Of a stretch of DNA of 25,825 nucleotides, positions 4,237 through 11,403 are shown one piece after another. The notes beneath the pieces were generated by a model, which was not told the origin of the DNA, did no database searches, and worked only from the letters and a program-made list of their open reading frames with translations. Each line of letters starts with the position of its first letter. Position 1 is the first letter of the stretch. The DNA comes from Bacteroidales bacterium (GTDB lineage Bacteria; Bacteroidota; Bacteroidia; Bacteroidales; UBA932), in contig JAKSJQ010000030.1 in assembly GCA_024402115.1 (NCBI GenBank), forward strand, positions 1 through 25,825, in the 5' to 3' direction. The translations under genes were made by a program, and so were the position numbers.

Positions 4237-4244
4237 TATCTTTG
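4237..4244 (+). promoter_or_regulatory. Bacteroidota -7 box for the antiporter-Hdr operon
   Basis: TATCTTTG matches the Bacteroidota sigma-A -7 consensus TAnnTTTG exactly. Transcription would start a few bases downstream, giving a leader of about 30 bases before the ATG at 4278. I see no clear TTTG -33 element at the expected distance. The box overlaps an in-frame TTG at 4242, which argues against that codon as the start of the antiporter. Confidence 0.55.
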
Positions 4245-4277
4245 GTGATTACGCAAAAACTGCTAAAAACCAAAATA

Positions 4278-5231
4278 ATGATTCTTAATTCAGTATATCT
4301 CCTGGCAGGACTCGCTCTGGTGCTTATCGGAGCGGAGGCTCTTGTCGAAGGCGCTTCCAGCATCGCCCGCAAGTGGGGGGTGAGCGAGTTCGTGATCGGC
4401 ATGACCATTGTGGCATTCGGAACCTCGGCTCCGGAGATGGTCGTCAGCTTCATATCGTCGATACAGGGAAAAGCCGACATGGCAGTCGGCAACATCGTAG
4501 GCTCGAACATCTTCAACACAGCGTTCATCCTCGGCCTGACGGCGCTCATCTGCCCTGTATACGTCACCGATTCAAACAAGAGGATTGACATTCCGATCAA
4601 CCTCATCGTATGCGTCATCCTGATCATTTTCGGCATAAGCATACCTTTCATCGGAATCGACACCACAACCTTGAGCAGGATCGAGGGTGCCGTATTCCTG
4701 CTGCTTTTCGGTGCATACCTCTGGTACTCATTCACGCATAACACTCCGGAAGAAGAAAACGACAATGCAAAGACATTGAACATCTTCGCCGCCATTCTGA
4801 TCACTGCAGCCGGACTCGCCGGTCTCATCTTCGGAGGAAGGCTCTTCGTGAACAATGCCGAGGCGCTTGCAAAACAGTTCGGTCTCAGTGAGAAATTCAT
4901 CGGAATCACCATCCTGGCACTTGGAACGTCGCTTCCCGAGCTCGCGACCAGTCTCGTCGCAGCCGTCAAGGGAAAGAGCCAGATGGCTCTCGGAAACATA
5001 CTAGGCTCCAACGTATTCAACGTGCTGCTGATCCTCGGTTCCGCAGCCCTCATAAGGCCGCTTGACATGGAGGGCATCAACGCAATCGACTTCTCTGCAC
5101 TCCTGCTCTGCGGCATAGTGGTTCTCGTAGGAGCGCTTGCAAGCAGGAAGAGACAGCTCCGATTCGCCACCGGATCAGCTCTTCTGCTGGTCGGCATCGC
5201 ATATATGACCTACCTTTTCATCAATCTATAG
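4278..5231 (+). CDS. calcium/sodium antiporter, CaCA family (YrbG-like)
   Basis: A 317-residue inner-membrane protein with about ten hydrophobic segments and the two inverted alpha-repeats of Ca2+/cation antiporters. Repeat 1 has GTSAPE (48-53) followed by GNIVGSNIFN. Repeat 2 has GTSLPE (216-221) followed by GNILGSNVFN. The acidic residues in GTSxPE bind the cation in this family. A polar loop (about 154-166, TPEEENDN) separates the halves. The probable reaction is exchange of Ca2+ for Na+ or H+. An in-frame TTG lies upstream at 4242, inside a likely promoter, so I take the ATG at 4278. The HdrC-like gene starts 2 bases after the stop, so this transporter is the first gene of the redox operon. 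Whether ion exchange and electron transfer are linked is unknown. Confidence 0.9.
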   Translation: MILNSVYLLAGLALVLIGAEALVEGASSIARKWGVSEFVIGMTIVAFGTSAPEMVVSFISSIQGKADMAVGNIVGSNIFNTAFILGLTALICPVYVTDSNKRIDIPINLIVCVILIIFGISIPFIGIDTTTLSRIEGAVFLLLFGAYLWYSFTHNTPEEENDNAKTLNIFAAILITAAGLAGLIFGGRLFVNNAEALAKQFGLSEKFIGITILALGTSLPELATSLVAAVKGKSQMALGNILGSNVFNVLLILGSAALIRPLDMEGINAIDFSALLLCGIVVLVGALASRKRQLRFATGSALLLVGIAYMTYLFINL

Positions 5232-5233
5232 AC

Positions 5234-5935
5234 ATGGGAAAATACTACGACGAACTCTGTAAGGATTACAGGTTCAAGGAAGGCATGCACACCTGCATCA
5301 ACTGCGGTACATGCACTGCCATCTGCCCTGCCGCCGAGTTCTACAGATATGACCCGAGAAAGATAGTCGACACCGTCCAGAGAAAGGACGACGCCGAGAT
5401 CGAAGCCCTGCTCAAGAGCGAGACCATCTGGTACTGCGGAGAGTGCATGTCCTGCCTCACCCGCTGTCCGAGAAAGAACGGTCCCGGACTCGTGATCATG
5501 GCGCTTCGCAACCTCTCGACCAAATACGGATTCTTCACATGCTCCGAAAGAGGAAGGCAGCTCTATCCCCTCTCCAAGGCGCTCAACGGCAATATCCTCA
5601 AGTACGGATACTGCATCCACGCCGAGACCTTCACCATGAAGGACCATCCGGAGGCCGGCCCTGTCTTCGCATGGCATCTCGAACATAAGGAGGACTCATA
5701 CGCAAGGCTCGGAGCGAACTACATGAAGCCCGGCCCCGGCGCCATGAGGCTCATCGCACAGGAAGACCTGGACGAGCTCAAGGCGATCTTCGACGTCACC
5801 GGCGGTACCGAGAGGATGGAACTCATCGAGAAGTATTCCGAGGAAAAGGCCCGGGAGATGGGCATGACCATGGACGAATACCGCGAATACACATTCACCC
5901 ACTGCTCTCCGGGGCATTTCAACAACGAAGAATAG
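5234..5935 (+). CDS. heterodisulfide reductase subunit C-like protein (C1), 2x[4Fe-4S]
   Basis: A 233-residue soluble protein with two classical 4Fe-4S motifs: C21-x2-C24-x2-C27-x3-C31-P and C68-x2-C71-x2-C74-x3-C78-P. This is the HdrC arrangement, in which the subunit relays electrons between the flavoprotein HdrA and the catalytic HdrB. The protein carries about 150 residues beyond the second cluster, including a charged helical C-terminus (EDLDELKAIF, KYSEEKAREMG). That is longer than a bare two-cluster HdrC and more like the C1 subunit of sHdr complexes, as far as I recall. It lies 2 bases after the antiporter gene and 5 bases before the HdrB-like gene. No signal peptide or membrane helix is seen, so it should work on the cytoplasmic side. 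Confidence 0.88.
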   Translation: MGKYYDELCKDYRFKEGMHTCINCGTCTAICPAAEFYRYDPRKIVDTVQRKDDAEIEALLKSETIWYCGECMSCLTRCPRKNGPGLVIMALRNLSTKYGFFTCSERGRQLYPLSKALNGNILKYGYCIHAETFTMKDHPEAGPVFAWHLEHKEDSYARLGANYMKPGPGAMRLIAQEDLDELKAIFDVTGGTERMELIEKYSEEKAREMGMTMDEYREYTFTHCSPGHFNNEE

Positions 5936-5940
5936 AATAC

Positions 5941-7011
5941 ATGATATATCAAGGCAAGGAAAAGATCTGGTCCGACTACCAGAAGGAGATACCGGACGAC
6001 CACTGGTTCTACGCCCGAAGCTGCATACGTCAGAACTTCTTCCCGGCTTCCGAGAAGTATTTCCTCACCATCTGCAGGGACGTGCTCGGCAAGGACATCT
6101 GCGACAACGAGCACCACACCACCTGCGGAGGCATCTCATATCACAGCGACACCATCCCGCAGGCAACCGCGATGGCGATCGTGGCGCGCCAGTTCTCGCT
6201 CATGACCGAGGCCGGCTACAGGAATCTCGTCGTATCCTGCATCACCTCCTTCGGAAACTACACCGAGATACTCGAGACATGGAGAGAATTCCCCGAGGTC
6301 GAGGCCCGCGTGCGCGAGGACCTCTGGAAGGCCTGCAGAAGGGAATTCGAGAAGCCTGAGTACGTCGCCCACGCCAGCGACCTGATGTACCATTTCAGGG
6401 ACGAGATCGCTGCCAGGTCAAAGTACAAGCTCGTGAACAGGAAGACAGGCGAGCCTCTCAAGGTCGTGGAGCACATCGGCTGCCACTATGCCAAGATGTT
6501 CCCGCACAAGGGCGTCGGCGGCGCTGAATACCCATGCGTGCTCAGCGGAATGGTCAACTCATGGGGCGGCAGCGTCATCGACTATCCCGAGAGAAGGCAC
6601 TGCTGCGGATTCGGATTCCGCCAGTATCTCGTGAAGGCCAACCGCGGCTACTCGATCGCGAACACCTACAAGAAGTTCGAGTCCATGGAGCCTTACCATC
6701 CGGACATGATCATCACCAACTGCCCTGGATGCCCTTACTTCCTCGACAGGTGGCAGTATGTGATTGCGGAGATGGAGGGAAAGACTTACGGAGAGAACGG
6801 ATTCGGCATCCCTGCACTCACCTACGAGGAGATGGCCGGCCTCGTCCTCGGATATGACCCGTGGGACCTCGGACTCCAGCTCCACCAGGTGGCGATAGAG
6901 CCTCTCCTCGACAAGATGGGAGTCCCGTACGACCCTGAAAGAAAATATCTCGGCCTCGACGAGAAGGACCTCAAGAGACCTGAATTACCAAAGAATCTAA
7001 GATGCTTCTGA
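5941..7011 (+). CDS. heterodisulfide reductase subunit B-like protein (B1) with one intact CCG domain
   Basis: A 356-residue soluble protein with two CCG-type domains, the fold that in HdrB holds non-cubane Fe-S clusters used to cleave a disulfide. The C-terminal domain is complete: C181, C221-C222-G and C261-x2-C264. The N-terminal domain is degenerate: C28 and C62 remain, but the residue before C62 is threonine (TTCGG), and in SCITS only C100 of the expected C-x2-C pair is present. So probably only one non-cubane cluster is bound. The enzyme likely contacts the thiol or disulfide substrate together with the C1 and A subunits. Its gene starts 5 bases after C1 and ends 1 base before the HdrA-like gene. 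CoM-CoB is not the expected substrate in Bacteroidales; the real one is unknown. Confidence 0.85.
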   Translation: MIYQGKEKIWSDYQKEIPDDHWFYARSCIRQNFFPASEKYFLTICRDVLGKDICDNEHHTTCGGISYHSDTIPQATAMAIVARQFSLMTEAGYRNLVVSCITSFGNYTEILETWREFPEVEARVREDLWKACRREFEKPEYVAHASDLMYHFRDEIAARSKYKLVNRKTGEPLKVVEHIGCHYAKMFPHKGVGGAEYPCVLSGMVNSWGGSVIDYPERRHCCGFGFRQYLVKANRGYSIANTYKKFESMEPYHPDMIITNCPGCPYFLDRWQYVIAEMEGKTYGENGFGIPALTYEEMAGLVLGYDPWDLGLQLHQVAIEPLLDKMGVPYDPERKYLGLDEKDLKRPELPKNLRCF

Positions 7012-7012
7012 T

Positions 7013-8035
7013 ATGAAAGAGAACATCGTCATCATAGGCGGAGGTGCGGCCGGACTCGAGGCTGCATACCAGCTTCTCACACTGGGCTACACCCCTATCA
7101 TCATCGAGAAGAGCGGCCAGCACGGCGGCCATCTATATGACGGGAACCGCCGTTTCCCGGACATGACCCCCGCAAAGCAGGGGGCCAGGGACATGATGGA
7201 CAGAGTCAAGGATGCAAACATATTCCTCAATACCGAGATCATCTCCATCGACAGGCAGGACGCGGGCTACACCATCGTCCTTAACAACGGCATCAGCATC
7301 GCCTGCACCGCCGTGCTCGTCACCACCGGCTTCCAGCTCTTCGACGCCCACAAGAAGGAGGAGTACGGCTACGGCATCTATGACCATGTGATAACCAACA
7401 AGGACCTCGAAGGCTGGTTCAACGGCAACAGGGACAGGCGCGTCGACGACAAAAACGGTCTCAAGGCCGTCGGATTCGTGCACTGCGTGGGATCCAGGGA
7501 CATCAAGGCCGGCAATTCCCAGTGCTCGAAGGTATGCTGCATCACCGCGATCAAGCAGGCCATCGAGATGAAGGAGAAGTATCCTGACGCCGAGGTCTAC
7601 TGCTTCTACATGGACCTGCGAATGTTCGGTAAGAAATACGAGGACTTCTACATCAACGGTCAGAAGGACCATGGAATCCATTTCATCCGCGGCCGCGTAT
7701 CAGAGGTCAGCGAGAACATCGACGGAAAGGTGATAGTGAAGGCCGAGGACACGCTCAACGGCAAGCCGGTAAGGGTGACGCTCGACCTGCTCGTGCTCAT
7801 GGCCGGAATCGTATGCAACTCCGACACTGCGAAACTCGCGGCGGCGCTCAAGCTTCCTACCGACACCGACGGCTTCCTCAAGAGCAGGGACAACGTGCTC
7901 AACATAATCGAATCTCCAAAGGAGGGCATCTTCTACGCAGGTGCATGCACAGGTCCGAAGACCGTGCCTGAGACCGTGGCAGAGGCAAGGGCGGCCGCTC
8001 TCGCAATCCATAACCATATCAACGCGCACAAGTGA
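7013..8035 (+). CDS. heterodisulfide reductase subunit A-like FAD/Fe-S flavoprotein (minimal form)
   Basis: A 340-residue flavoprotein. Residues 5-14 (IVIIGGGAAG) form the FAD-binding Rossmann motif, with E32 ending the second strand. The HdrA signature is complete: C158-VGSRD, then C171-SKV-C175-C176, followed by AIKQA. The spacing (13, 4 and 1 residues) equals that of the four cluster ligands in the thioredoxin-reductase-like domain of methanogen HdrA. The C-terminal FAD motif reads YAGACTGPKTVPETVAEARAAA. The N-terminal domain and the extra C-terminal ferredoxin domains of methanogen HdrA are absent, so only the flavin core remains, as in sHdrA and QmoA. No hydrogenase, F420 or formate dehydrogenase partner is encoded nearby, so flavin-based bifurcation is doubtful. 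It overlaps the next gene by one base (TGATG). Confidence 0.9.
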   Translation: MKENIVIIGGGAAGLEAAYQLLTLGYTPIIIEKSGQHGGHLYDGNRRFPDMTPAKQGARDMMDRVKDANIFLNTEIISIDRQDAGYTIVLNNGISIACTAVLVTTGFQLFDAHKKEEYGYGIYDHVITNKDLEGWFNGNRDRRVDDKNGLKAVGFVHCVGSRDIKAGNSQCSKVCCITAIKQAIEMKEKYPDAEVYCFYMDLRMFGKKYEDFYINGQKDHGIHFIRGRVSEVSENIDGKVIVKAEDTLNGKPVRVTLDLLVLMAGIVCNSDTAKLAAALKLPTDTDGFLKSRDNVLNIIESPKEGIFYAGACTGPKTVPETVAEARAAALAIHNHINAHK

Positions 8036-8373
8036 TGGACTTCGGATTCGGAATAGCGCCAAGCGCGTCCATCAACCTCGACAAGGTTGACCTCAGCCTG
8101 TACAGGAAGGTCAGGGAGATCGAGCCGGACATCGACAGATGCATGGCCTGCGGCAGCTGCAGCGCCACCTGCCCCGCAGCCAGGTTCTCCGGAATGAGCG
8201 TGCGCAAGGTGATACTCGGCCTGCAGAGAGGCCAGCAGAAGGAAGTCAGGAAGATGCTTTCCAACTGCATGCTCTGCGGAAAGTGCAGCATGGTCTGTCC
8301 GCGCGGTATAAACACCAGGCACCTCATACTCACCGTATGCAGGTACTTTGACATGACGGAGGAGCAGAAATGA
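8035..8373 (+). CDS. heterodisulfide reductase subunit C-like protein (C2), 2x[4Fe-4S]
   Basis: A 112-residue soluble electron-transfer protein with two 4Fe-4S motifs: C36-x2-C39-x2-C42-x3-C46-P and C78-x2-C81-x2-C84-x3-C88-P. It is shorter than the C1 protein of the same operon and lacks its tail, so the two are distinct subunits and not a recent duplication. The start is the ATG at 8035, which overlaps the stop of the HdrA-like gene by one base; a GTG three bases earlier is less likely. Its own stop overlaps the next start by four bases (ATGA), which indicates translational coupling. By position it should carry electrons between the flavoprotein and the membrane-bound HdrDE-like subunit. 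Confidence 0.88.
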   Translation: MDFGFGIAPSASINLDKVDLSLYRKVREIEPDIDRCMACGSCSATCPAARFSGMSVRKVILGLQRGQQKEVRKMLSNCMLCGKCSMVCPRGINTRHLILTVCRYFDMTEEQK

Positions 8374-10175
8374 CAGAGAGATTCCTTTCCGCATACAACA
8401 GCTTCGTGCTTCCGTTCCTCTTCGGAATGGGCTTCGTCATCCTATACTGCATCATCGCTGCCATAAGGATATGGTTCCAGCTGACGACCGAGGACAAGAA
8501 GAAGTTCATGCTGTCGCTGGTGAACCCGAAGATAATGCTGAAGAACGTCCGCGACCTCTTCTGCGACTGCCTCTTCCACGTCAAGCTGTGGAAGCGCAAC
8601 AAACTCCTGGGCTACATGCATTCAAGCATCGCCTTCGGATGGTTCATGCTCATCGTGGTTGGTCATATCGAGTGCTTCTGCTATTTCCCGGGAAGGCTCA
8701 AGACCTTCTACTACCCTATCTTCTTCCGCTTCTTCGTGGCCGAAAGCCAGTCCACCATGCAGGGTTCGTTCTTCTTCTTCCTGATGGACTTCTTCCTGCT
8801 CATGGTGCTCTCCGGCATCGTGCTCGCCATAATCAAGAGGATACGCTCGCGCTTCTTCGGAATGAGAAGGACCACCAACCTCAGCCTCACCGACCTCATA
8901 GGTCTGTACTCGCTCTGGGCGATCTTCCCTCTCCGCCTCCTCGCCGAAGGCTTCACCGCCGACATCGCCGGAGGTTCATTCCTCACCAAGAGTCTAAACA
9001 TTCTCTTCCACAACTTCCTCGGCAACCACCTGAACATGCTCCCGACCTGGTGGGCGTACTCGATCGCCCTGGGCATCTTCATGGTCATGCTGCCTTTCAC
9101 CAGGTACATGCACATCCCTTCCGAGATCATGCTCATACCGCTCAGGAACGCAGGAATACAGATCAGCAACCCGCGCAAGGGCATTGCAAAGGTCATGGTC
9201 TACACCTGCCCGAGCTGCGGAGTCTGCATCGACGCCTGCCCTATGGGCATCACGAAGAGGAACAACCGCGACGCGACCGTATATCTCAACCGCCAGCTCA
9301 AGAGAAGGAACGAGGGCCGCATCGAGGAGATCAGCGACAAGTGCCTGCTCTGCGGAAAGTGCGGTGCCGTGTGCCAGGTGCAGATTCCGGGCGACAAGCT
9401 CAGGATAGCCCAGCGCTCTCTCCGCAGATATGACGTCACCCCAGACTACAGCACCATAGACGCAGCTCCGCTCACACCCGCCGCTGAAGGCAAGGTTCTC
9501 TATTTCGCCGGCTGCATGACCGCGCTCACCCCTGCGATCAGCAAGTCCATGGAATCCATCCTGCGCAAGGCCGGAGTCGATTACGAGTTCATGGACAGGG
9601 ACGGCGGCCTCTGCTGCGGTCGTCCGCTCTGGATGGCGGGAAGACTCGAAGAGGCAAAGCAGCTCATCGCAAAGAACGAGGAGCTCATCGCAGGATCCGG
9701 TGCATCGACGCTCCTGGTCTCATGTCCTATCTGCTACAGGGTGTTCAAGGAGAGGTACAATCTCGGCAGCATCCGCGTAGTCCATCACAGCGTGTACATC
9801 AACGAGCTCGCAGCCCAGGGTAAGCTCACTCTGGAGAACGGCGGCCAGCTCAGCTATGTATACCATGACCCTTGCGAGCTTGGACGCGGCTGCGGCATAT
9901 ACGAGCAGCCGAGGGAGCTGCTCTCTAAGGTGGGCAGGCTTGTGGAGGCGGACAAGTCCCACGACGAATCCATCTGCTGCGGCGGCAGCATCGGCAGCCT
10001 GACCCTAGGCTTCGACAAGAGGCAGGCGATGACAGAGAACGCCCTGAGAAATCTCACATCAGGCAATCCGGACGGTATCGTGACCGCATGCCCTCTCTGC
10101 CGGAGCACCTTCGCAAGATATGCCGACCGCCCTGTCGAGGATATCGCGGAGATCGTTGACAAGAAAATGGTTTAA
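8370..10175 (+). CDS. membrane HdrE-ferredoxin-HdrD fusion (cytochrome b-like domain plus two CCG domains)
   Basis: A 601-residue protein in three parts. Residues 1-250 hold about five membrane helices of the NarI/HdrE/DsrM type, with histidines H84 and H99 in one helix, H214 and H220 in a loop, and H248 after the last helix; these are candidate heme b ligands. Residues 280-335 hold two 4Fe-4S motifs (C280, C283, C286, C290; C325, C328, C331, C335). Residues 375-580 hold two complete CCG domains: C382, C415-C416, C452-x2-C455 and C502, C536-C537, C574-x2-C577. This equals membrane-bound HdrDE of methanogens in one chain, and also resembles GlcF/LldE-type subunits. The likely role is electron exchange between menaquinone and a disulfide or thiol. 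It is the last gene of the operon and is followed by a strong terminator. Confidence 0.85.
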   Translation: MTERFLSAYNSFVLPFLFGMGFVILYCIIAAIRIWFQLTTEDKKKFMLSLVNPKIMLKNVRDLFCDCLFHVKLWKRNKLLGYMHSSIAFGWFMLIVVGHIECFCYFPGRLKTFYYPIFFRFFVAESQSTMQGSFFFFLMDFFLLMVLSGIVLAIIKRIRSRFFGMRRTTNLSLTDLIGLYSLWAIFPLRLLAEGFTADIAGGSFLTKSLNILFHNFLGNHLNMLPTWWAYSIALGIFMVMLPFTRYMHIPSEIMLIPLRNAGIQISNPRKGIAKVMVYTCPSCGVCIDACPMGITKRNNRDATVYLNRQLKRRNEGRIEEISDKCLLCGKCGAVCQVQIPGDKLRIAQRSLRRYDVTPDYSTIDAAPLTPAAEGKVLYFAGCMTALTPAISKSMESILRKAGVDYEFMDRDGGLCCGRPLWMAGRLEEAKQLIAKNEELIAGSGASTLLVSCPICYRVFKERYNLGSIRVVHHSVYINELAAQGKLTLENGGQLSYVYHDPCELGRGCGIYEQPRELLSKVGRLVEADKSHDESICCGGSIGSLTLGFDKRQAMTENALRNLTSGNPDGIVTACPLCRSTFARYADRPVEDIAEIVDKKMV

Positions 10176-10190
10176 TACTGATTCATAAAT

Positions 10191-10225
10191 AATTAAAGCC
10201 TGTCTTTGAAAGACAGGCTTTAATT
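10191..10225. terminator. bidirectional terminator between the Hdr operon and the acyltransferase gene
   Basis: A perfect inverted repeat with 17-base arms (10191-10207 and 10209-10225) around a single central base. The stem core is AAAGCCTGTCTTT/AAAGACAGGCTTT, flanked by A- and T-rich ends. In RNA it would form a long hairpin with a small loop and a short U-rich tail in both directions. It lies between convergent genes, so it can serve both. Confidence 0.85.
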
Positions 10226-10248
10226 GTATTCTCTATTCCGCACGTCTA

Positions 10249-11403
10249 TTAGATGGTCATCTGGAGCATCTGCTTTGAGACGATAGGGTTGGCGTAGATG
10301 TCGAGGAAGATCTGACGGAGCTCGTCCCTGTTGAGTTCCTTCTCAACGCAGTCAAGCTGCTTCTCCATATATGCTACGAACTCGTCCTTGTCCTCCTGGG
10401 TGTAGCGGTCGTTGAAGGTGTAGGAATGGTTGCGAAGGTCGTATGCGATAAAGTTGGTCTTCCAGAGACGGTAGCCATCGATCACGCGGTGATCCACGAA
10501 GTGGCGGATGTACTGGTAACGGTCATTCTTGTCGCAGGTGGCAGCAAGAGCAAGCTCGGCGGTGGTGAGAGGCTTGCCGATGTTGAGATGGACATTGCCC
10601 TTCCACTGGTTGATGCCGTAGATGATGCTTGCCCAGTCCTCTCCCGGTGCCTTGACATATTTGCCCTTCCTCGAGATGAGGCGCTCCCTGGCCTTGAAGA
10701 TATCGCAAGGCTCATACTCATATGAGATGCTGTGAGGGACGATGGTCAGCTCCTCGAAATTCTCGTCGAAGTTCTTGGTGCCGCTCATGTCGAGCATCTT
10801 GAGCAGACCCTGCTCTGTGAGGTCGAGTCCATCCTTTGTCCTGCCCTGCCTCTGTGCAAGCCAGATGCTGCTGGTACCTGAAGTGATGGTTGCACGTATG
10901 TATTTCGAAAGCTGCTGCGAAGAGAGATAGAGCTCACGCGAGGTGATGCCCCTGACAACCTTCACCATACGGTTCGAGCGCATGAGCGCCTCGATGAAGT
11001 CATTGGTGATGAGGTTGCTTCCGACAGCGATCTGAGTGAGGTCGAGTCCGTTCCTGAAGAGGACGAGCTGCGTAATCGCTGGGTCGAATATGATGTCACG
11101 GTGGTTACTCATTGCAAGATATTTCCTGCCGAGCTCAGCCACGTTCGAGATACCGTCGTATGAGAATGTCTTGATGGTCGTTGCTATCACCCTCTCCACG
11201 AGCTTGTGCATTACCATGACCTGGAAGTCATTGATGCTGTTGACCTGGAGAAGGAGCTTGGTAAGGAAGTCAGGCTCCTCGTTAGGGAAAATGAACTTCG
11301 AACCAGCAGCTATATATGGGTGGTTTGCCACCTGATGGAGGGCCGCTGCGGCTTCGTCATCATTGTACGGGCATATATCCACGAATTCTGTAAGGTCTAC
11401 CAT
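10249..11403 (-). CDS. glycerolipid-type acyltransferase (PlsC/PlsB superfamily)
   Basis: A 384-residue protein of the phospholipid/glycerol acyltransferase superfamily. Motifs in order are SNHRDIIFD (H101, D103; catalytic block I), a block-II-like segment ending VVRGI (R151), WLAQRQGRTKDG (181-192, equivalent of the EGTRS substrate-binding block) and IVPHSISYEYEPCD (221-234, block IV). The family moves acyl chains to glycerol-3-phosphate or lyso-phosphatidate, or to other small acceptors such as amino-acid lipids in Bacteroidota; which one applies cannot be decided here. There is no obvious membrane helix. The start ATG is supported by a -7 box 19 bases upstream. The gene follows queA in the same direction after 33 bases but probably has its own promoter. 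Confidence 0.82.
   Translation of the reverse strand: MVDLTEFVDICPYNDDEAAAALHQVANHPYIAAGSKFIFPNEEPDFLTKLLLQVNSINDFQVMVMHKLVERVIATTIKTFSYDGISNVAELGRKYLAMSNHRDIIFDPAITQLVLFRNGLDLTQIAVGSNLITNDFIEALMRSNRMVKVVRGITSRELYLSSQQLSKYIRATITSGTSSIWLAQRQGRTKDGLDLTEQGLLKMLDMSGTKNFDENFEELTIVPHSISYEYEPCDIFKARERLISRKGKYVKAPGEDWASIIYGINQWKGNVHLNIGKPLTTAELALAATCDKNDRYQYIRHFVDHRVIDGYRLWKTNFIAYDLRNHSYTFNDRYTQEDKDEFVAYMEKQLDCVEKELNRDELRQIFLDIYANPIVSKQMLQMTI

Follow-up and report, generated by a model that had tools for sequence, protein, structure and literature searches.

An operon of the sHdr/minimal-HdrA kind in Bacteroidales and its linkage, in relatives, to genes of sulfonolipid synthesis

Closest described systems and the five-gene operon

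The subject of this study is C1-B1-A-C2-DE, an operon of five adjacent genes in a 25,825-nucleotide stretch of DNA from a Bacteroidales bacterium (contig JAKSJQ010000030.1; the whole stretch is referred to as the window), together with its linkage in relatives to genes of sulfonolipid synthesis. The closest described systems are built around subunits of the heterodisulfide reductase (Hdr) type. QmoABC combines a QmoC-type HdrC-HdrE fusion with two HdrA-like subunits; EtfD/EMO – the membrane ETF:menaquinone oxidoreductase – unites a membrane heme part, a dicluster and two CCG domains in one chain. The sHdr systems, described as oxidizing sulfane sulfur to sulfite (PMC10451225), are of two types: type I, C1B1AHC2B2, and type II, C1B1AHB3 with etfAB in one cluster (PMC11582611). 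LbpA, a lipoate-binding protein, is reported from nearly all shdr genomes (PMC10332631).

All five reading frames are intact on the + strand (Table 1), separated by gaps of +5, +1, -4 and -4 bases; the gap between A and C2 becomes -1 if C2 starts at ATG 8035, which is probably its start, rather than at GTG 8032. An earlier inspection of the window made without database searches (the sequence-only reading) had the adjacency and the spacing of -4 to +5 right. Pfam and NCBIfam identify C1 as HdrC-, B1 as HdrB-, A as HdrA- and C2 as HdrC-like, and DE as a dicluster protein with two CCG motifs. The sequence-only reading had named the first four in the same way, A as a minimal HdrA; its "HdrDE" is, in predicted fold, closest to EtfD. 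Every match from the five proteins misses the NCBIfam Hdr equivalog cut-offs by far. Cys and His ligands are near-invariant across the five subunits (56 to 102 rows aligned per subunit): those of C1 (C21, C24, C27, C31, C68, C71, C74 and C78) are kept in 98-100% of 94 rows, those of A (C158, C171, C175 and C176) in 101/101, and all eight Cys of C2 in 59/59. DE, with three invariant His and a NarI-like fold, would bind heme. B1, which we propose as the catalytic subunit, has a degenerate N-terminal Cys pattern in common with two type II sHdr-like B1 sequences. A has the sHdr-type trait of a minimal HdrA, in that both N- and C-terminal ferredoxin parts are missing; its best solved relative is 6tjr (E 9e-61), which we take to be sHdrA, residues 4-331 of A aligning with 3-335 of its 349.

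Likeness to sHdr lies in the C1-B1-A core, the minimal HdrA, the type II-like degenerate N-terminal CCG motif of B1 and a second arm of C and B type. The differences are that the window operon has no H, B2/B3 or EtfAB, that no LbpA is found in the window, that the partner of C2 is an EtfD-like membrane protein, and that relatives of the operon are linked to lipid biosynthesis genes. Membership of type I was rejected (no H and no soluble B2 in the window, with DE in their place), as was membership of type II, since the window has neither H nor B3 nor EtfAB. A Pfam scan of 20 likely flanking genes found no LbpA, ETF, hydrogenase or sHdrH, and no EtfAB that might partner DE. The sequence-only reading had already remarked on the lack of LbpA, ETF and hydrogenase nearby; to call the operon a complete sHdr-like one was an overstatement, given the absence of sHdrH and B2/B3 and of LbpA from the flanks. 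Its view of the operon as a relative without H, whose second B-type subunit sits in the membrane, agrees with the kinship evident in the 6tjr match and the B1 pattern. Its further statement, that H was lost and B2 swapped, implies descent from sHdr, and this is unsupported as worded because HdrA falls beside, not within, the sHdr rows. In a tree of the HdrA core (35 rows, rooted on methanogen-type HdrA, with only three sHdr rows: 6tjr, L136 and L137) the Bacteroidales group with the cyanobacteria (100/97) in a clade separate from that of the sHdr rows (100/98). Support is weak (87/54) for the branch that unites both clades and excludes the deltaproteobacterial row, and the Bacteroidales alone do not form one side of a branch. 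In the B1 tree – from which seven cyanobacterial B1 rows, L003, L083, L086-L089 and B1 sequences shorter than 330 aa were left out – a very long branch sets apart the B1 of type II-like clusters. The operon is filed as of the sHdr/minimal-HdrA kind, a variant outside sHdr proper. Two loci from genomes of a Bacteroidota phylum sample, L136 and L137, themselves look like type II sHdr clusters: they contain C1-B1-A, a 428-aa B3-like gene, EtfB- and EtfA-like genes, small LbpA- and H-like genes (the Etf, LbpA and H labels come from reading of sequence starts) and a protein of 679-701 aa, 24-25% identical to DE, that follows the two Etf-like genes.

Membership of QmoABC was rejected: the NCBIfam qmoC scores are 45 and 28 bits against a cut-off of 300, and there is only one HdrA. 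Methanogen HdrABC was rejected on scores of 250/1100 for HdrA2, 131/450 for HdrB and 77/350 for HdrC (bits/cut-off), and on an HdrA that is not full-length; from methanogen HdrABC and HdrDE the operon differs in that its HdrA has no ferredoxin parts and B1 keeps only three of the N-terminal CCG cysteines. The single-chain domain plan of EtfD/EMO is found in DE (heme binding being predicted), but DE is only 20% identical and its partner is an Hdr-like module. Cyanobacterial C1-B1-A-C2-B2 clusters (L001 and L004-L018; one on a plasmid; Nostocaceae and Oscillatoriaceae included) resemble the window in C1 (45% identity), B1 (42-44%) and A (42-48%) and share its HdrA clade, but have a soluble B2 where the window has DE.

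Linkage to cysteate synthase and SulA in relatives

Twenty relatives have the operon physically linked to a gene for cysteate synthase or for a synthase-like stand-in; there are four layouts, and in 11 of the 20 the linkage includes SulA. These pyridoxal phosphate (PLP) enzymes came to notice through clustering of the flanks of 103 loci. The gene directly after DE in L054 (14255-15592) scores 456 bits against the cysteate synthase model TIGR03844 (cut-off 324.9) and matches PDB 9k3c, "Cysteate synthase", at E 9e-175; the gene at 1872-3140 in L022 is SulA/CFAT, matching PDB 28eh, "Cysteate-C-fatty acyltransferase" (E 3e-171), and 7u7h, presumably SulA (E 8e-189). The layouts are as follows: DE and then cysteate synthase (L054, L057, L065, L072, L082, G001, G417, G709 and G771); SulA and the stand-in, CYS2, before C1-B1-A-C2-DE (L022, L080, G515 and G450, the CYS2 of G450 by coordinates); C1-B1-A-C2-DE before SulA-CYS2 (G779); and SulA-CYS2 before the rearranged order C1-C2-DE-B1-A (L026, L030 (= G489), L044 and L069, and by coordinates G591 and G744). 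On the B1 tree adjacency of a TIGR03844 synthase needs three changes (two forced) and SulA-CYS2 adjacency four (three forced), although for both labels the changes may include losses. Among the 67 genomes that have both B1 and a synthase, the two lie within 8 kb in 10, where about 0.3 would be expected with genomes treated as independent. The operon may make sulfite for sulfonolipids, since it adjoins sulfonolipid genes in a number of relatives: this link, which the sequence-only reading missed, suggests both a product (sulfite) and a purpose.

Genome-wide content was counted in 50 operon genomes, a subset of the 62 Bacteroidales loci (12 loci were not entered into the synthase and SulA counts). 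A synthase of either kind is present in 41/50: 28 with TIGR03844 over cut-off, three with partial pieces and 10 with CYS2-type scores (six known CYS2 loci, four inferred from score). SulA-grade matches (at least 54% identity, four of them partial) occur in 46/50 and were not obtained in G796, G803, G813 and G825; 14/14 further genomes have SulA as well (13 with B1, plus G766 without; the match in G705 is partial). Of nine operon genomes without a recognized synthase, eight contain full-length SulA and the ninth, G633, a partial match; cysteate may be made there by a CapA-type enzyme. Two further observations concern these clusters. A protein of ~356 aa with a weak glyoxalase-family match accompanies the SulA-CYS2-operon clusters of L026 (6065-7135), L030, L044, L069 and L080, and in Bacteroidales bacterium CF (L144, 12876-14651) a sulfate-permease-family gene comes after the operon and its cysteate synthase; no PF01507 match was found in the CF genome.

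CYS2 (L022, 3143-4387) is a threonine-synthase-like PLP protein next to SulA, and is present too at L026, L030, L044, L069, L080, L141, L143, L145 and L147. Treatment of a 10-locus flank cluster as one synthase family was dropped: it splits into TIGR03844 and CYS2. In the order sample (393 genomes of the order to which Bacteroidales bacterium CF belongs; completeness unstated, some as small as 1.2-1.5 Mb), TIGR03844 exceeds its cut-off in 103 and strong CYS2 matches occur in 72, while the two co-occur in none (P = 4e-11), as expected of stand-ins. CYS2 is a candidate for a second kind of cysteate synthase: the case for this activity is made only by its position next to SulA and by the lack of co-occurrence of its strong matches with TIGR03844.

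The operon itself is kept in relatives, as a survey of gene neighborhoods – a check put forward in the sequence-only reading – makes plain; the refuting outcome named in that reading, which included the lack of a conserved operon in relatives, did not come about. C1-B1-A-C2-DE is the commonest order, read in 33/96 tabulated loci (window and a few same-genome duplicates counted), the rearranged order is read in 4/96, from a rumen lineage, and the table has the other 59 short of at least one gene, often on account of a locus of only ~4 kb, a contig end, or a crude ORF caller that settled on an antisense ORF, an error it also made with C2 of the window. The arrangement is not due to chance. A set of 79 loci, from the best 80 of 587 confirmed places of a genome scan, comprises 15 cyanobacteria, two deltaproteobacterial metagenome-assembled genomes (MAGs) and 62 Bacteroidales or unplaced Bacteroidota. 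B1 is found in 127/393 genomes of the order sample, in two (G421 and G471) only partially, and in three genomes of a 395-genome phylum sample whose Bacteroidales share is not stated (CF, and two at only 31% identity). Elsewhere C1-B1 or B1 stands without A, C2 and DE: a C1-B1 pair beside DUF134 and NifX-family genes (L033, 9315-11068), genes beside a class-V aminotransferase (cysteine desulfurase-like) and an Fe-S protein (L079, 2562-4414), and a gene beside a Mrp/NUBPL ATPase and a NifX-family gene (L070, 9977-11041). B1 may work outside the complex too. HdrA of L068 (11183-12198) is split into ORFs of 240 and 85 aa, an apparent frameshift or assembly error.

Proposed function and its alternatives

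We propose, tentatively and at slightly short of an even chance, that the operon encodes a membrane-bound sulfane-sulfur:menaquinone oxidoreductase which turns persulfide into sulfite and, in many hosts, feeds the synthesis of cysteate and sulfonolipid. The five subunits would form one complex, with a protein-bound persulfide oxidized to sulfite at a non-cubane Fe-S site of B1; electrons would run from C1 to the flavin and cluster of A, then to C2 and, within DE, over its CCG and [4Fe-4S] clusters to the b hemes, which would hand them to menaquinone; in an anaerobe they would go from there to fumarate reductase. In many relatives sulfite and phosphoserine would yield cysteate, which SulA would condense with acyl-ACP to start sulfonolipid (capnine) synthesis. 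Potentials are near -116 mV for sulfide/sulfite, -74 mV for menaquinone and +33 mV for fumarate, and with fumarate as final acceptor the energetics are plausible. It is possible, if somewhat more doubtful than the foregoing proposal, that the operon stands for a third, membrane-tethered branch of the sHdr/minimal-HdrA kind: an anaerobic sulfite synthase that serves cysteate and sulfonolipids without oxygen or sulfate reduction.

The cyanobacterial context favors, without proving, a sulfane-sulfur substrate. Genes like those of sulfide:quinone reductase (SQR) lie within six genes of C1-B1-A-C2-B2 in 8/16 cyanobacterial loci, among them the plasmid of Picosynechococcus PCC 7003 (L001), where an SQR-like gene comes after the cluster. 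Among scanned neighbors, SQR-like genes in L004, L012, L014 and L016 are all below curated cut-offs, as are, in L004, a rhodanese and a protein of the MBL fold whose best models are hydroxyacylglutathione hydrolase and Blh; ArsR and psbA neighbors in L007 are above them. A TauE/SafE-like gene appears in L004, L007 and L009 (by reading of sequence only), and L008 and L010 have no such sulfur-type neighbors in the stretch examined.

A further comparison concerns sulfate assimilation, followed through PF01507, the PAPS reductase/CysD family (searched at E 1e-5, counted only at 1e-20 or better; this kept 34/39 matches among genomes with B1 and a synthase and 74/74 among those with a synthase and no B1). 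PF01507 is lacking in 33/67 genomes with B1 and synthase against 6/80 with synthase and no B1 (odds ratio (OR) 12, P = 1e-8), and in 9/60 with B1 and no synthase against 34/80 with neither (OR 0.24, P = 5e-4); the interaction of B1 and synthase is strong (P = 2e-9). The control sets were 80 of 108 genomes in list order and 80 random draws from 151, respectively, and G517 and G686, which carry partial synthase pieces, entered neither the synthase counts nor the random draw. PF01507 is absent from 4/4 order-sample genomes with a synthase next to DE and from 10/10 B1 genomes with high-identity CYS2; CYS2 at 55% identity or more to that of L022 is accompanied by B1 in 10/11 genomes (P = 8e-5), whereas CYS2 alone shows no association with B1 (OR 1.06).

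Several observations weigh against sulfite supply as the function. Phylogenetically independent pairs for synthase and PF01507 lack number 1.5 for and 2.3 opposed (10 pairs, median P = 1; a control confined to B1 genomes, on a B1 tree of 125/127 with G421 and G471 left out, and of low power), and the raw complementarity with sulfate assimilation may be shared ancestry; since this control gives no support, the case is not rested on that complementarity. Either synthase is found in 67/127 genomes with B1 and 108/266 without (OR 1.6, P = 0.03), a weak association not relied on as evidence: 60/127 B1 genomes have neither synthase family, and 108/175 synthase genomes have no B1. SulA was counted only in B1 genomes save G766, which has SulA without B1. 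CYS2 of L022 reaches no curated cut-off (155/303 bits for threonine synthase, 109/325 for cysteate synthase, as score/cut-off) and, among PDB structures, is nearer threonine synthases (E 1e-24) than 9k3c (E 4e-12). The other 8/16 cyanobacterial loci, some of them short, have no SQR-like neighbor, and LbpA, near-universal in shdr genomes, is missing from the 20 flanking genes of the window. Nor does a cysteate synthase or SulA adjoin the operon in the window itself. Its B1 belongs to the starred 17-row clade (97) of the B1 tree, eight rows of which keep the synthase next to DE: the clade comprises CF, the pair G509/G690 without adjacency, a Cryptobacteroides-type clade (synthase after DE in 7/8 rows, the eighth, L050, ending just past B1) and the window's own six-row subclade (96), in which the adjacency has been lost or was never present. 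Within this subclade L031, L052, L074 and L078 have TIGR03844 away from the operon and L066 has a fragment; on this ground, and because synthase and MscS genes of L140 fill the position of a 73-base gap in the window (Table 1), a cysteate synthase gene may well be present elsewhere in the genome of the host.

The 60 B1 genomes without either synthase, 51 of which have PF01507-family genes, would be in keeping with a general sulfide/persulfide or thiol:menaquinone oxidoreductase that serves redox balance or sulfide detoxification, sulfite not being its main product and the sulfonolipid link a side use in some lineages. Just such a role, relief of sulfide toxicity, is suggested in PMC11129491 for the heterodisulfide reductase system of Black Sea strains that come from sulfidic water and belong to several phyla, including Bacteroidota. 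That reading leaves unexplained why the operon is linked time and again to SulA and to synthases of two unlike families, and SulA in the operon genomes that want a synthase, where a CapA-type route may serve, also counts against it; we consider it unlikely, although, as the main rival, deserving of weight. A reductive enzyme, in which menaquinol or another donor cleaves thiosulfate, an S-sulfonate or a disulfide to sulfite or thiol, is improbable. Classic Hdr enzymes do act reductively, thiosulfate cleavage would likewise yield sulfite, and disulfide chemistry would suit the CCG motifs conserved in B1 and DE, but the nearest relatives are sHdr and the cyanobacterial clusters, of which half have SQR-like genes nearby, and reduction of thiosulfate by menaquinol is strongly uphill. 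Least credible, and very improbable in our view, is a true sHdr of type I or II that has lost H and LbpA and still oxidizes sulfur for energy: it would account for the shared family, C1-B1-A order and degenerate B1 pattern, but HdrA lies outside the sHdr rows, and neither H, B2/B3, EtfAB nor LbpA was found in the window.

What is new is the genomic context, the linkage of the operon to sulfonolipid genes in relatives. Capnine lipids are reported from Labilibaculum (PMC11129491, PMC12927429), Alistipes and Odoribacter are described as having an archaeal-type cysteate synthase instead of CapA (PMC10191378), and the sulfonolipids of these two genera have been discussed as modulators of gut inflammation (PMC9304779). 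Among the open-licence papers searched, none mentions both "heterodisulfide reductase" and "sulfonolipid", and none has "sulfonolipid", "cysteate" and "sulfite" together; the word "sulfite" occurs 0 times in the accessible text of the sulfonolipid papers PMC9304779, PMC11211663 and PMC12927429, and the "sulfonolipid" of PMC13232883 is, in the part available, a sulfoquinovose lipid. On Hdr in Bacteroidales only PMC11129491 was relevant, the available parts of PMC10266427 and PMC6085437 containing nothing on the operon. If sulfite supply is correct, then a widespread uncharacterized operon gains a substrate, a product and a purpose, a complex of the sHdr type has a biosynthetic rather than an energy-yielding use, and the so far missing source of sulfur for immunoactive gut lipids becomes testable.

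Surroundings of the operon in the window

Table 1. Coordinates of the operon and adjacent features in the window
Feature	Position	Strand	Description
Na/Ca exchanger-family gene (PF01699)	4242-5231	+	ends 2 bases upstream of C1
C1	5234-5935	+	HdrC-like, 233 aa, two [4Fe-4S] motifs
B1	5941-7011	+	HdrB-like, 356 aa; CCG motif intact C-terminally, degenerate N-terminally
A	7013-8035	+	minimal HdrA-like, 340 aa; FAD site and one [4Fe-4S] site
C2	8032-8373	+	second HdrC-like, two [4Fe-4S] motifs; 113 aa from GTG, 112 aa from ATG 8035
DE	8370-10175	+	601 aa, EtfD-like: NarI-like membrane part, two [4Fe-4S] motifs, two CCG motifs
DE-to-next-gene gap	10176-10248		73 bases; L140 has cysteate synthase and MscS genes here
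384-aa gene	10249-11403	-	no Pfam match; downstream synteny marker, outside the complex

The flanking genes belong mostly to housekeeping families (for example QueA, CinA, TatC, ValS and Maf) or to none, and give no lead on what the operon does. There is no sign of phage origin: positions 1-25000 have no match in a phage collection. The Na/Ca exchanger-family gene is probably a mere neighbor of the operon; by reading, a similar gene lies upstream of C1 in L139 (10546-11508). The 384-aa protein has look-alikes in L057 and L140, and in L140 the gene comes, again by reading, after the synthase-MscS pair.

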